A stretch of DNA of 11,524 nucleotides, taken from assembly GCA_937915975.1 (NCBI GenBank), contig CALGGL010000040.1:1-11524 (forward strand). Reading direction: 5' to 3'. Shown here one piece after another: positions 1 through 7,758 of this stretch; the first letter of the stretch is position 1; the number at the start of each line of letters is the position of its first letter. Under the pieces are notes generated by a model, which made no database searches, was not told the origin of the DNA, and worked only from the letters and a program-made list of their open reading frames with translations. Made by a program: the position numbers and the translations under genes. Source of the DNA: an uncultured Lachnospiraceae bacterium. Lineage in GTDB: Bacteria; Bacillota; Clostridia; Lachnospirales; Lachnospiraceae.

Positions 1-39
1 AGATCTACACTCTTTCCCTACACGACGCTCTTCCGATCT
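1..39 (+). other. Illumina TruSeq universal adapter (sequencing artefact)
   Basis: These 39 bases match, from memory, the 3' part of the Illumina TruSeq universal adapter/PCR primer, ending in the characteristic CGCTCTTCCGATCT. The match ends exactly at base 39, where genomic insert would be expected to start. It is library-construction sequence left on a contig end, not part of the genome, and should be trimmed. It also shows that the assembly stops here, so any gene to the left is lost. Confidence 0.97.
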
Positions 40-234
40 TAATTCATAATTTATATATTGATAATTCAATCCTTCATCAGATTTAAATGAAGTTGATTTT
101 GATATGGAATAATGACTTTCAGGATAATCATAACATTTTTTTAAAATAAAGCTTGATTCTTTATCATCTAATATTAATGTTATATTTAAAAATATGTCAA
201 GTCGACACAAGTATAGTGGAGAGGAAAGTATATT
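40..234. other. AT-rich contig end upstream of glf; possible minus-strand gene fragment
   Basis: This stretch has no plus-strand gene, because all three plus frames have early stops. Bases 40-200 are only about 19% GC by hand count, far below glf at roughly 45% in sampled stretches. One minus frame is open from base 264 to base 40 and on through the adapter, about 75 codons. Its translation between about 200 and 40 reads like a real protein, rich in D, S, Y, K and N (for example LILDDKESSFILKKCYDYPE). No ATG, GTG or ribosome binding site opens it; TTG at 210-208 is the only start candidate. It may be a fragment of a neighbouring minus-strand gene, part of a chimeric read end, or chance. The only clear signal is the glf ribosome binding site GGAGAGG at 218-224. 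I found no convincing promoter. Confidence 0.3.
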
Positions 235-2864: not shown

Positions 2865-2893
2865 TTGACTTAATGTGTTATAGATTATATACT
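2865..2893 (+). promoter_or_regulatory. Sigma-A promoter for the secreted-protein gene
   Basis: A -35 box TTGACT (2865-2870) and a -10 box TATACT (2888-2893) are 17 bp apart, each one base off consensus. Transcription should start near 2900, giving an untranslated leader of about 50 nt before the ATG at 2952. With the perfect AGGAGG that follows, this suggests strong expression. One arm of a 10-bp inverted repeat (2873-2882) lies in the spacer, so a DNA-binding regulator could block it. Confidence 0.8.
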
Positions 2894-2938
2894 AATAGAG
2901 TAGAGACTCTATAAAAATGTATAGAGAATATAACACAT
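2873..2938. repeat. 10-bp inverted repeat flanking the -10 region and leader (candidate operator)
   Basis: ATGTGTTATA at 2873-2882 is the exact reverse complement of TATAACACAT at 2929-2938. The left arm lies between the -35 and -10 boxes. The right arm ends one base before the Shine-Dalgarno sequence. The arm centres are 56 bp apart, about five helical turns. This arrangement fits two half-sites for a looping or dimeric regulator. No regulator gene is visible in the window, so the operator role is inferred. Confidence 0.5.
2895..2926 (+). promoter_or_regulatory. Two mutually exclusive hairpins at the 5' end of the leader RNA
   Basis: A 7-bp stem ATAGAGT/ACTCTAT (2895-2901 with 2906-2912, loop AGAG) overlaps a second 7-bp stem CTCTATA/TATAGAG (2907-2913 with 2920-2926, loop AAAATG). 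The middle strand can pair with either side but not both. The six-base unit ATAGAG occurs at 2895, inverted at 2907 and again at 2921. The first stem would lie at or just before the predicted transcript 5' end. The set could be an RNA switch, an mRNA-stabilising 5' hairpin, or repeated protein-binding half-sites on DNA. Confidence 0.45.
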
Positions 2939-2951
2939 AGGAGGAAATTAT

Positions 2952-3476
2952 ATGAGAATTACAAAACAAATTAAAAAGAAATCAATGGCATTGCTTACTG
3001 TAGTTTGTTTGCTTGCAGGAAGTATGTCGGTACTTGCAGCTTCAGATGATACCGATAATAATGAAGAAATCTCAGCTCAAAGTGCTGATGGCGGGGTTTT
3101 ATGTGATGACGGATACATAGAGTACACTGAGTATCCAAGTGCTGATAATGACGATGATATAATCTATATCGGAACTATAGATAATACAAAGGGCAGCGGC
3201 ACAATTAGTAATTGGTCAATTGCTTCGGGAAGTTCAGCTACAAGTTCAATATTTAATGCAAGCAGCGGAGGTACAATAAGCATTGCAGTTAATGTATCAC
3301 CAATAAATAAAACTGTCAGAGTAGGAATTGTACAGCCTAACGGTGTAAAAAGATATGTAGAAGGTTCGGGTTCTGTCGGCCATGACTTTTCACTCACACA
3401 GACGGGTAAGTATAGAGTTTATATAGCAAATGACAGCGGTACATCTGTAACTGCAAACGGTTCATATGTATATTAA
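2952..3476 (+). CDS. Secreted protein of unknown function sharing a domain with the adjacent M56 protease
   Basis: The 174-aa precursor has a clear Sec signal peptide: a basic n-region (KQIKKK, 5-10), a hydrophobic core (13-28) and a VLA-A cleavage site near residues 27-30. C19 is not in a lipobox, so it is not a lipoprotein. An acidic linker (about 31-65) leads into a Gly/Ser/Thr-rich, beta-strand-like domain (about 70-174) without membrane or sortase anchor. Residues 124-160 align without gaps to 411-447 of the neighbouring M56 protein, 15 of 37 identical, including G-I..P.G..RY.E, H144 and TG.Y...I.N. I do not recognise a named family; the fold could be a small beta-sandwich, perhaps PPC-like. 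AGGAGG at 2939-2944, 7 nt before the ATG, and its own promoter predict abundant product. A ligand, decoy or surface partner of the protease is an inference. Confidence 0.85.
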   Translation: MRITKQIKKKSMALLTVVCLLAGSMSVLAASDDTDNNEEISAQSADGGVLCDDGYIEYTEYPSADNDDDIIYIGTIDNTKGSGTISNWSIASGSSATSSIFNASSGGTISIAVNVSPINKTVRVGIVQPNGVKRYVEGSGSVGHDFSLTQTGKYRVYIANDSGTSVTANGSYVY

Positions 3477-3487
3477 TATGTATTTTA

Positions 3488-3535
3488 TTATAAATACTAA
3501 ATGGGTGGAAGTATCCACCCATTTAGTATTTATAA
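3488..3535 (+). terminator. Perfect 22-bp hairpin between the secreted-protein gene and the M56 gene
   Basis: Bases 3488-3509 pair perfectly with 3514-3535 around the loop AGTA. The GC-rich core (GGGTGGA/TCCACCC) sits in AT-rich flanks. It starts 12 bp after the secreted-protein stop. The tract beyond the core is T-rich but interrupted by A and G, so it is a less typical intrinsic terminator. It may act as a partial terminator or 3'-end stabiliser, giving high secreted protein and lower M56 expression. Confidence 0.75.
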
Positions 3536-3555
3536 ATTTTATAGGGATTAAAGTA

Positions 3556-3584
3556 TTGTTTTGAATAAAATAATACTTTATAAT
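3556..3584 (+). promoter_or_regulatory. Possible promoter for the M56/glycosyltransferase operon
   Basis: A perfect -10 box TATAAT (3579-3584) lies 17 bp after a poor -35 candidate TTGTTT (3556-3561). Transcription would start near 3591, giving a 24-nt leader before the ATG at 3615 and its AAGGA site. In such AT-rich DNA a TATAAT can arise by chance, so this is moderate support only. Confidence 0.4.
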
Positions 3585-3614
3585 TACATTATTACAAAAG
3601 ATAAGGAAAAAATT

Positions 3615-5021
3615 ATGGACATTATTTGCAATATTGTTTTGATAATTCTATCAATGAGTATTACGGGAACTGTTCTTTCTTTGCTATGGATACTGTTAAA
3701 AACTGTATTTGGAAAATTTTTAAGATCGGATATTTTGTATTTTTTATTAAAGCTTGTTATTGTCAGTTTTTATATACCGATATTCATTCTTGATATTACA
3801 ATTAAATCATATTTTTACAGTGGATTTAAAAACTACTACTTTTTCTTTTCAAAACCAATGAAAATAGTGCTTGGATTAATCTTTGCCGTCATGGTTGTAA
3901 TGATTATTATAAAGCTTATTTCATGGATAAAGGGAAACTTAAAGATTAAGAAAACTGTTCGTTTCAGAATCCCGGTAAAGGTAAATGTGAATAAAATAGT
4001 TGATGAGCTGCGTGCCGAGATGAATATAAAGAAAAAGTTTGATGTGTATCAGGCATTTGTTACAACTCCTTTTATATATGGATTTTTTAAGCATGTAATA
4101 TACTTAAAAATGGAAAACTATGACGATGAGGATATAAAGATAGCTATCAGACATGAACTTACGCATTATAAGCAGGGTGATGTATTCTTTAAACCTATTG
4201 CAAGCATAATGTTTTGCATTAATTGGTTTAATCCTTTGGCGTGGTATATTAAAAATGAATATAATATATGGGCTGAGGTAAGCTGTGATTATAAATGTTT
4301 TACCAAGGGCGGCTTGACTGTAGAGGAATACTTCCTTGGAGTGTTTAGAATGGCAGGCGAAATATATGAACAATATATGGGCATAGTATCACCGGTTGGA
4401 GGAAAGAGTGAGATATATAAAAGAACCACACTTATGTCTAAGTATTCACGTAATGAGATTAAACCATTATCTCTTGCACTTATTTCATTATTTACGGTAA
4501 TAATTTCAGTTTTTTCTTTATATGAAGTATCATATGCAGCAGGTAATTTATATAATTATGTGTATGAAACAACACAAACAGAGATAAAAGAATATGATGT
4601 GGTGACTGAAGATGGATCTGTTGAACATGTTATTAATAATGTGACAGATGATGAAAAAAATTATAATGCAACAAACGAAGTGTTTAACCAAATTAGTTAT
4701 AATGATTATAAGACGGATGAAAATATTAATGTTGATGTTATCGTAAATAAGAATGAAAGCTGGATGACTACAGTATCAGGTTTAAATGGTGATAATATTA
4801 TTCTTGTTGCATTGACTTGTGAATTGAAAGATTCTGTATTTGAAATTGGAATTATTGAACCCGACGGAACTGTAAGATATATAGAATGCGATAATAGAGT
4901 TAATCATAGATTTAAAGTAAACAAAACAGGTATATATAAAATTTTTATTACCAATATCGGACAAGAAGATGCTAACGTAAAGTGTTCAATTATGATTTCA
5001 CCCCAATCAAAGGAGGAATAA
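3615..5021 (+). CDS. BlaR1/MecR1-type M56 membrane metalloprotease with a non-PBP outer sensor domain
   Basis: Three N-terminal membrane segments (about 3-28, 39-63, 82-104) precede a cytoplasmic zinc-protease domain. That domain has TPFIYGFFKHVIYL, like the M56 family's TPF-G--KP-I-LP, HELTH at residues 180-184, and EVSCD at 221-225 supplying the probable third ligand E221. A fourth membrane segment (about 286-308) leads to an outer domain of about 155 aa. In BlaR1/MecR1 this position holds a penicillin-binding sensor, which is absent. Residues 411-447 instead match the secreted protein encoded upstream. ATG 3615 is chosen because AAGGA (3603-3607) lies 7 nt before it and TM1 then starts at residue 3. 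An in-frame TTG at 3561 has no good site and lies inside the candidate promoter. The 3' end overlaps the next gene's ribosome binding site. Role inferred: signalling through proteolysis; the target is unknown and no BlaI homologue is present. Confidence 0.88.
   Translation: MDIICNIVLIILSMSITGTVLSLLWILLKTVFGKFLRSDILYFLLKLVIVSFYIPIFILDITIKSYFYSGFKNYYFFFSKPMKIVLGLIFAVMVVMIIIKLISWIKGNLKIKKTVRFRIPVKVNVNKIVDELRAEMNIKKKFDVYQAFVTTPFIYGFFKHVIYLKMENYDDEDIKIAIRHELTHYKQGDVFFKPIASIMFCINWFNPLAWYIKNEYNIWAEVSCDYKCFTKGGLTVEEYFLGVFRMAGEIYEQYMGIVSPVGGKSEIYKRTTLMSKYSRNEIKPLSLALISLFTVIISVFSLYEVSYAAGNLYNYVYETTQTEIKEYDVVTEDGSVEHVINNVTDDEKNYNATNEVFNQISYNDYKTDENINVDVIVNKNESWMTTVSGLNGDNIILVALTCELKDSVFEIGIIEPDGTVRYIECDNRVNHRFKVNKTGIYKIFITNIGQEDANVKCSIMISPQSKEE
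5011..5016 (+). promoter_or_regulatory. Ribosome binding site embedded in the end of the M56 gene
   Basis: AGGAGG is formed by the last codons of the M56 gene, 6 nt before the glycosyltransferase ATG at 5023. Only one base separates stop and start, so the two genes are almost certainly co-transcribed and probably translationally coupled. This ties the protease to the glycan operon. Confidence 0.85.
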
Positions 5022-5964: not shown

Positions 5965-7758
5965 ATGAGTTTTTCGCTGGCTGCATCTTTATTTTATATA
6001 ACAGTTACCCTGGCTGCTGTTTTGGGCTTTTATTTGTATGCAAAGTCTGATACGATGCTTTATGCGGGGACGTGGATTCCTATTTCCTTTTTGGCGCTTA
6101 TGGGTTATCAGACTCTTATATCCGGTTTGCTTAGCTTGGTGAAAATCAAAGTAAATATTATATCTGTCGGATTATTTAATCTTGCTGCTGCGGCAGTTCT
6201 TTGGTTTTTTATTATCAGAAATAAAAAAATACAAAAATACAAATTTGAGTGGGCGGATTTTGCAAGCGGGCTGCTTATTTTTGCAGCAATTTTATGGGTT
6301 ATAAATAAGAGATACGGTGCAGACCTTAATCCCACTTATAACTCGGTAGATCCGTCGGTGCACTTTAAGTCTGCGAGAAATGTGATTAATAATCAGAGGG
6401 TGTGGGGAATGTATTATTCCGCACTTCATAACGGACTGCTTATAGAAACTCTCGGAGCATTTGTAAAAGCGGCCGATATATATAAAATATATGTCGCAGG
6501 GGATATTTTGCATCTTATACTGGCGGGTGTTATGTTCTGGGGAGTTATACGAAGCTATGCCAAGGACAATATGCTTAGGATTGTGGGTATAATTGCTACA
6601 CCTATGTACACTATGGGATATCCTTTAAACAGCACGCTCTTTGGATTTTCTTATCTTGGAATGGGAGTAACTGTGGTTGCGTTTATAGTGGCGGCAGCGG
6701 ATATTTATACTAAGGATGAGATTAATAAAAAATGGAGTATAGTGCTTCTTTCACTTGGCTGTTACAGCATATTTCAGTCTTATGTTCTTTTTATGCCGGT
6801 GGTTTTCTTTTCGCTTCTTGCCTGTGCGCTGGTTAAACAGTTTAAGGATAAGAAGCTTATATCACTTAGTACTGTTTGGATAGGTCTTTCGATATTTCTG
6901 CCTGCAACCATACTGGGACTTTGGTATACCTACGGAGGTATATTCGGAAGCTCCGGAAGCGGAGGTACGGGAGGCGGAACTACGGTAGCCTCGGCAATAA
7001 ATATTGAGGGTGGAATTTATTCCGATCTTTATACTAATTTTATATTTATGATTCCTTTGGCTCTTTTCGGTTTTGTAAGCATCATAAGAGATAAAAAGAA
7101 TAAGTACATATTATATGCTTTGTCGCTTGAGCTCGTGTTTATGCTTGCTATGCTTATCAAAGCCGTAAGAAGAGAGGTATCGGCTTATTATTATTACAAG
7201 AATTATTATATGCTCTGGCTGATTGTATGGATTTTATTTTATATGGGTATATATTATCTTGAGAAAAATGAAAAGCTGATTGCGGTATTTACGTTGGGCT
7301 TATGGATTATGATTACCTGTATGAGCTACAGGGATATTGAATACAGAATTGCTGTTAAAAATCCATACCTCTGCAGTGATTATAAAGCCTATGATTTATC
7401 TCATATCTATAGCTTCAACAGAACATTTTTAGTAATAACGGATTCTTATTCCGAGGATAAGCTTGATATATATGCTTATGCGGTTGATAATATTCTTTCC
7501 GAAGATAAGACCTATATTCCGCTTGCGGGCTCAGCCGAAGACTATTATTGGATGCAGGCGATTACCAATCAGAGCGATTCGGATTATCAGTACTGGAATA
7601 AGGGGGCGGATGTATTCTTTTTGAGTTTGAAAGAGGATGATATTCATTATATAATGGTATTTAAGGATAATGATTTTTATAATAATTATATCGGTTATTT
7701 TGGTTCAATGAACAGGGTTTATGAAAATGAAACAGGTTTCATAGGAGTAGTGGAATAA
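5965..7758 (+). CDS. Large multi-span membrane protein, possible GT-C transferase or polysaccharide polymerase
   Basis: The 597-aa protein has about ten or more predicted membrane segments, starting near residues 3-24, 31-53, 64-84 and 96-112. A soluble C-terminal region (about 455-597) is rich in Y, D and N. A first large loop carries SVDPSVHF with D129 and H133. An acidic residue in such a loop is typical of GT-C enzymes, which use polyprenyl-phosphate sugars outside the membrane. A Gly/Ser/Thr-rich stretch around 324-341 sits in another loop. I do not recognise a named family. Its place beside GT2 and DUF2142-like genes fits a GT-C transferase or a Wzy-type polymerase, the function otherwise missing here. 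No Wzx flippase was found in the window. GGAGG at 5956-5960, 4 nt before the ATG, supports the start. Confidence 0.8.
   Translation: MSFSLAASLFYITVTLAAVLGFYLYAKSDTMLYAGTWIPISFLALMGYQTLISGLLSLVKIKVNIISVGLFNLAAAAVLWFFIIRNKKIQKYKFEWADFASGLLIFAAILWVINKRYGADLNPTYNSVDPSVHFKSARNVINNQRVWGMYYSALHNGLLIETLGAFVKAADIYKIYVAGDILHLILAGVMFWGVIRSYAKDNMLRIVGIIATPMYTMGYPLNSTLFGFSYLGMGVTVVAFIVAAADIYTKDEINKKWSIVLLSLGCYSIFQSYVLFMPVVFFSLLACALVKQFKDKKLISLSTVWIGLSIFLPATILGLWYTYGGIFGSSGSGGTGGGTTVASAINIEGGIYSDLYTNFIFMIPLALFGFVSIIRDKKNKYILYALSLELVFMLAMLIKAVRREVSAYYYYKNYYMLWLIVWILFYMGIYYLEKNEKLIAVFTLGLWIMITCMSYRDIEYRIAVKNPYLCSDYKAYDLSHIYSFNRTFLVITDSYSEDKLDIYAYAVDNILSEDKTYIPLAGSAEDYYWMQAITNQSDSDYQYWNKGADVFFLSLKEDDIHYIMVFKDNDFYNNYIGYFGSMNRVYENETGFIGVVE

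Follow-up and report, generated by a model that had tools for sequence, protein, structure and literature searches.

Signalling by M56 proteases is best worked out for BlaR1, whose ligand is a drug, and in the RsgI sensors the sensor domains recur on secreted enzymes. The DNA analysed here, a stretch of 11,524 nucleotides from an uncultured Lachnospiraceae bacterium (contig CALGGL010000040.1; the whole stretch is called the window below), encodes a small secreted protein, here named S, and just downstream an M56 protein whose outer domain (ectodomain) is related to S. Sequence comparisons and predicted structures suggest that this locus belongs to a BlaR1/BlaI-type transmembrane module in which the outer domain of the protease was duplicated off as a secreted protein, a reading given a probability of about 0.5. 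The coding features on which it depends are as follows.

2952 to 3476, forward strand: gene for the secreted protein S, 174 residues, with a signal peptide (judged by eye, as are all signal peptides mentioned here) followed by a free copy of the M56 ectodomain.
3192 to 3473, forward strand: GOLD/PPC-like beta sandwich of S, residues 81 to 174, from structure prediction with pLDDT block means of 96 to 98.
3615 to 5021, forward strand: gene for the M56 protein, 468 residues; the ATG at 3615 is the start used by relatives.
4152 to 4289, forward strand: catalytic motifs HELTH (residues 180 to 184) and EVSCD (residues 221 to 225), read from the sequence.
4587 to 5018, forward strand: M56 ectodomain past the last helix, with its beta sandwich at 4722 to 5003 (residues 370 to 463).

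Residue numbers of the M56 protein count from the ATG at 3615; an alternative open reading frame, with a TTG start at 3561, would be 18 residues longer. The gene product matches PF05569 (E 4e-24) and carries the gluzincin motifs HExxH and ExxxD within a multi-helix membrane scaffold, and H180, E181, H184, E221, D225 and R270 are invariant across 49 aligned sequences. PMC9834060 describes the same motifs in BlaR1. With this BlaR1-like fold and its catalytic motifs, the protein has the BlaR1 topology that an earlier note on this DNA ascribed to it. The further proposal that the outer domain is not a penicillin sensor also stands: the BlaR1 sequence match stops at position 303-304 of the M56 profile, the predicted folds are GOLD/PPC-like, and no SxxK motif occurs in the M56 ectodomain or in S, so that the ectodomain does not qualify as class D beta-lactamase-like. 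Against the NCBIfam model blaR1_generic, the protein scores 60.4 bits, under the 400-bit cut-off. The idea that signal peptidase sheds the M56 ectodomain was considered and rejected: behind the last helix, 41 of 55 ectodomain-bearing M56 proteins have an AxA-like motif, but so do 42 of 64 M56 proteins of other kinds, which makes the motif unspecific. At another locus, an M56-like protein (L137, 2526-3740) has an ectodomain match and no HExxH, and is possibly a non-proteolytic receptor.

S and the M56 ectodomain are almost certainly paralogues within one regulatory module. Residues 124 to 160 of S align without gaps to residues 411 to 447 of the M56 protein with 15 of 37 identical, as the earlier note had counted, and in 300 shuffles of the M56 sequence no ungapped 37-residue stretch reached 15 identities (maximum 12). 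BLASTP of S against the M56 protein finds 17 of 52 residues identical (E 4e-10, for a single comparison), and alignments with relatives extend the similarity from the last M56 helix, or the signal peptide of S, through both C-termini. Near the start of this region, S and several M56 relatives from loci of the window's type share a CDDG-like motif. Some members have a signal peptide that itself resembles the M56 helix, a likeness given no weight because signal peptides converge. Both domains are predicted to form the same GOLD/PPC-like beta sandwich; the idea of the same domain occurring free and tethered thus survived a comparison in which differing folds would have spoken against it. The nearest solved fold for both is the p24/TMED GOLD domain, and the fold matches include the C-domains of subtilases and collagenases. 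In terms of sequence, matches to PF01105 (GOLD) are weak, with a best E of 4e-4 and 14 of 44 members at E<=1, the S of the window not among them; PF04151 (PPC) is matched by 2 of 44 members at E<=1 (best 0.014), and a sequence search of solved structures with S returned two matches, at E 0.74 and 0.99, neither credible.

The ectodomain is not confined to the window. Among 80 M56 loci from a scan of species genomes, 22 have the ectodomain (L001-L017, L023, L031, L032, L045 and L047), which in L023 is a C-terminal remnant only; a single-sequence search for the ectodomain across genome contigs gave no match. At a threshold of 1e-4 it was matched in 42 of 397 genomes drawn from the family and in 10 of 391 drawn from the class of G001, three of the latter below 1e-10, all of these counts being lower bounds with at most eight first-look candidates scored per genome. 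From this difference, the ectodomain appears to occur mostly in Lachnospiraceae, the family of G001; one ectodomain-bearing locus (L008) belongs to Thermoflexaceae. Outside the nearest genus there are 50 distinct M56-ectodomain proteins, 45 of them with a BlaI-type gene within 1 kb, and PF03965 was confirmed in all three BlaI genes scanned. Among the five that remain, one (L114, the same gene as L122) has its BlaI 1.1 kb upstream with S in between, and another, the second L004 gene, has only 295 upstream bases in the sequence.

A free copy with a signal peptide stands in the M56 cluster of 8 of the 397 family genomes (G001, G172, G313, G382, G032, G043, G147 and G191), and the proposed pairing therefore does not rest on a single genome. 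Its position varies, the copy being found downstream of M56, upstream of BlaI or in the BlaI-M56 interval. In G191, the M56 protein itself escapes detection by the ectodomain profile and scores 13 bits in the drift comparison described below. The paired copies do not include L132 and L136 (apparently decayed), L125 and L129 (no clear signal peptide) or L130 and L131 (weak and solitary), and the solitary free copies L121 and L128 are likewise absent from the count of pairs. On its well supported branches, the domain tree requires a minimum of five switches between the free and the tethered form, a count that pools gains with losses, allows for gene conversion and comes from a tree with several long-branch rows. 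The free copies of G313, G382 and G032 each group with their own neighbour, which gene conversion could also explain. Taken together, the changes on the tree and the own-neighbour groupings suggest that the pairing probably arose more than once. The simpler expectation that S is closest to its own M56 protein was rejected: for the window, its own M56 protein ranks 28th of 29, most other pairs behave likewise, and the own partner comes first only in G313 and G382.

Two side observations concern secreted proteins at related loci. In L120 (4966-5220), a second, truncated ectodomain copy without a signal peptide lies behind the free copy. At L005, L007, L009, L017, L023, L045 and L047, small secreted proteins unrelated to S are encoded downstream of M56 and are possible outputs of the BlaI-M56 pairs there; the seven small secreted proteins scanned from behind BlaI-M56 pairs gave no Pfam match at E<=0.1.

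Loci of the window's type (L001, L002 and L003) all fall in one genus of 37 genomes, of which 7 have the ectodomain. The window is presumed, from shared gene content, to lie in or near this genus, because the window's GT2 gene, which follows M56, shares 76-84% identity with its counterparts in G400, G001, G002, G003 and G411; G400 has the same gene order as the window from S rightwards. In this genus, a BlaI at least 54% identical to that of G001 is present in all 7 ectodomain genomes and in none of the 30 others (best 34%). In five of the seven relatives (G001, G002, G003, G400 and G411), each with one M56 match, this BlaI is encoded away from M56, and an amino-acid-binding protein gene adjoins it in G001, G002 and G003. 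In G408 and G412, BlaI sits between the amino-acid-binding protein gene and S, the G412 contig stopping within M56. The simplest account, inferred from these arrangements, is that a rearrangement separated the repressor gene from the protease gene and that the two products still cooperate; BlaI probably acts on the system from elsewhere in the genome.

The control region of S and the interval behind it contain four further elements.

2865 to 2893, forward strand: sigma-70-like promoter of S, TTGACT-17-TATACT, with 10 of 12 matches, from a scan that gave 17 sites overall against 16.5 in shuffles.
2900 to 2913, forward strand: operator-like dyad GTAGAGACTCTATA, at the likely transcription start.
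2907 to 2926, forward strand: second dyad, CTCTATA-N6-TATAGAG, noticed by eye, which overlaps the first and may be an operator half-site or a 5' mRNA hairpin.
3488 to 3535, forward strand: terminator-like hairpin between S and M56, -31 kcal/mol, z -9.0.

By eye, TTGAC-N17/18-TATACT followed by GTAGANNCTCTATA recurs in the S promoters of the window, G400, G001, G002 and G411, and in G408 and G412 the operator-like site is altered with its symmetry retained. In G003, which has no S, the site precedes M56. Across the 37 genomes there are 12 exact matches to the dyad; five lie outside open reading frames of at least 100 amino acids, four of them before S and one before M56. The window holds a single match, where 0.04 would be expected even with one mismatch allowed. 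Moreover, the dyad is found within two mismatches 35-41 bases before the linked BlaI-M56 operons of L098, L009 and L005; the promoter layout of S is repeated there in L005 and, with TATTCT in place of TATACT, in L009. Such recurrence, with modest statistics, ties the dyad to this group of BlaI proteins. Hairpins also occur 3' of S in the three relatives that were folded (L158, L157 and L152; z -4.8, -2.7 and -5.2). Because of the hairpin behind its gene, S should exceed the M56 protein in amount.

Where S is present, the tethered domain appears to have drifted. Drift was scored on a profile built from ectodomains of M56 proteins without a free copy in their cluster, and L137 was dropped because it has no HExxH. 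Partnered M56 ectodomains have a median of 66.5 bits (n=14) and unpartnered ones 98.0 (n=38, scored leave-one-out; p 3e-6), the groups being not independent and having in part a common faster background. "Unpartnered" here refers to the cluster: G172 and G313 are among the genomes with a free copy elsewhere, and in the genomes of L004-L017 free copies were assessed at the loci rather than genome-wide. Counted by lineage, all 8 partnered lineages lie under the unpartnered median (sign test 0.004). The free copies reach a median of 86.9 bits on the same profile (n=14), and in G003, with the same locus and no S, the tethered ectodomain scores 107.9. Between the window and its relatives, identity is 34-40% for M56, 50-64% for S and 76-84% for GT2. 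On these scores and identities, it is S that seems to have preserved the ancestral sequence where it is present.

A mechanism can be proposed from these elements. An outside signal would activate the M56 protease, which would cleave the BlaI-type repressor encoded elsewhere; the operator would thereby be freed and S made, in excess over M56 through the hairpin. S, with its ancestral sequence, would have taken over binding of the ancestral ligand, and would present or titrate this ligand to the M56 protein, raising or damping the signal. In effect, S would be a detached, self-induced sensor subunit, for which the odds appear slightly less than even. More tentative still is the broader picture of a split receptor, in which the ectodomain was repeatedly detached in Lachnospiraceae as a diffusible self-induced protein, the tethered domain then changed its role, and the window's relatives also came to have a separated repressor.

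Several observations weigh against the reading of a BlaR1/BlaI-type module with a duplicated outer domain. The window contains no BlaI-type gene (PF03965), and common descent alone could account for the joint occurrence of BlaI and M56 in the genus. Most M56-ectodomain proteins have no adjacent free copy, and G003 has M56 without S. That the dyad is the BlaI operator is likely, recognition being inferred from its placement; within two mismatches, the site lies upstream of 3 of 59 BlaI genes (each p 0.010-0.017) with about 0.7 expected, and all three are among the 15 BlaI nearest to the orphan, that is, separated, one, a restriction chosen after seeing them. Both this judgement and that on the distant BlaI were set slightly lower in view of the modest operator statistics and the presumed genus. 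That the orphan BlaI controls its own gene through the same operator was considered and rejected, the site being absent in all seven cases (4-5 mismatches, shuffle p 0.62-0.997); a different palindrome occurs in its promoter in G001 and G002. As regards drift, the protease part also scores lower in partnered M56 proteins (147.8 against 177.6, p 0.012), and 7 of the 14 partnered proteins come from the window and its presumed genus. Separately, a second BlaI-type gene of G002 (L084) shares 66.7% identity with the orphan and is preceded by a GTAGAGATTCTCTG dyad at three mismatches (shuffle p 0.14).

Of the rival explanations, the one that survives best assigns S the role of pathway effector: once secreted, it would bind the ligand of M56 and sequester or neutralise it, like beta-lactamase in the BlaR1 system, and so provide negative feedback. 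It would suit the finding that in the 37 genomes no gene other than S, or M56 in the absence of S, has an operator-like site outside open reading frames, as well as a hairpin that should favour S over M56, and it has a precedent in the relation of the BlaR1 sensor to class D beta-lactamases (PMC5957439, PMC9834060). However, a sensor of the same ligand would be expected to stay conserved, but the tethered domain drifts where S exists; in addition, the sequence and profile searches with S led to no enzyme and to no known binding family. This explanation is regarded as rather unlikely, if still worth weighing.

The odds are longer for S as the signal itself, triggering the protease by homotypic binding to the M56 ectodomain in a form of quorum or surface sensing. 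The two partners have the same predicted fold, and PMC11414720 offers a precedent, as the TMED9 GOLD domain uses the edge of its sandwich to bind a partner protein and certain TMEDs form dimers or heterotetramers; as described there, however, the oligomers are built by membrane and coiled-coil regions, with GOLD poorly ordered. S is unlikely to have been the ancestral signal, because most M56-ectodomain proteins lack a free copy, and self-induction would require a brake. Least probable is that S is a duplication by-product with no signalling role beside a decaying M56 ectodomain: the family has apparently decayed M56 remnants (L132 and L136), the partnered proteases score lower and M56 changes fast beside conserved neighbours, but S is repeatedly associated with M56, its promoter and operator-like site are conserved, its sequence is near-ancestral and the M56 catalytic residues are intact.

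The genomic setting bears on the nature of the signal. The earlier note placed both genes inside a polysaccharide operon and took the glycan as a candidate signal. The locus setting holds, whereas plain operon membership of S does not, given its own promoter-like site and the strong terminator-like hairpin. The glycan proposal is not supported, with no finding that points to it: among the BlaI-M56-ectodomain loci whose neighbourhoods were read, by eye and for part of the loci, no polysaccharide cluster was seen except at L001-L003, and the polysaccharide location therefore seems peculiar to the window and those closest to it. Within the polysaccharide locus, window positions 5965-7758 encode a 597-residue membrane protein that has no Pfam match and is kept in G400 and G003. 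Positions 1-39 look like an Illumina adapter, which makes this contig end an assembly artefact and the open reading frame at 1-210 (minus strand) partly adapter.

The locus points to a family with a protease and repressor of the BlaR1 kind and another outer domain, in which the free secreted copies give a handle on ligand and mechanism; S, as a small and confidently predicted domain, could serve as bait. If the outer domain was indeed detached, a bacterial receptor domain would have been turned into a diffusible regulator more than once. Literature searches, covering titles and the starts of abstracts, gave no description of such a pair of M56 protein and free ectodomain among the matches listed.

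Compared with known systems, BlaR1/MecR1-BlaI/MecI is alike in its M56 metalloprotease with a multi-helix scaffold, HExxH and ExxxD motifs and an ectodomain past the last helix, and in its BlaI-type partner and a dyad overlapping the promoter region. It differs in that the ectodomain here is a GOLD/PPC-like sandwich without SxxK rather than a relative of class D beta-lactamases, the repressor lies away from M56 in five of seven relatives, and a secreted paralogue of the ectodomain is encoded in the cluster. The p24/TMED GOLD domain provides the closest solved fold, whereas p24/TMED proteins are eukaryotic cargo receptors and the PF01105 match is weak. RsgI/SigI, which senses polysaccharides in Clostridium thermocellum, is alike in that the domain family of the sensor ectodomain is also found on secreted proteins; it follows sigma/anti-sigma logic with no M56 protease or BlaI, whereas the free copy here is a whole paralogous ectodomain adjoining the sensor gene.
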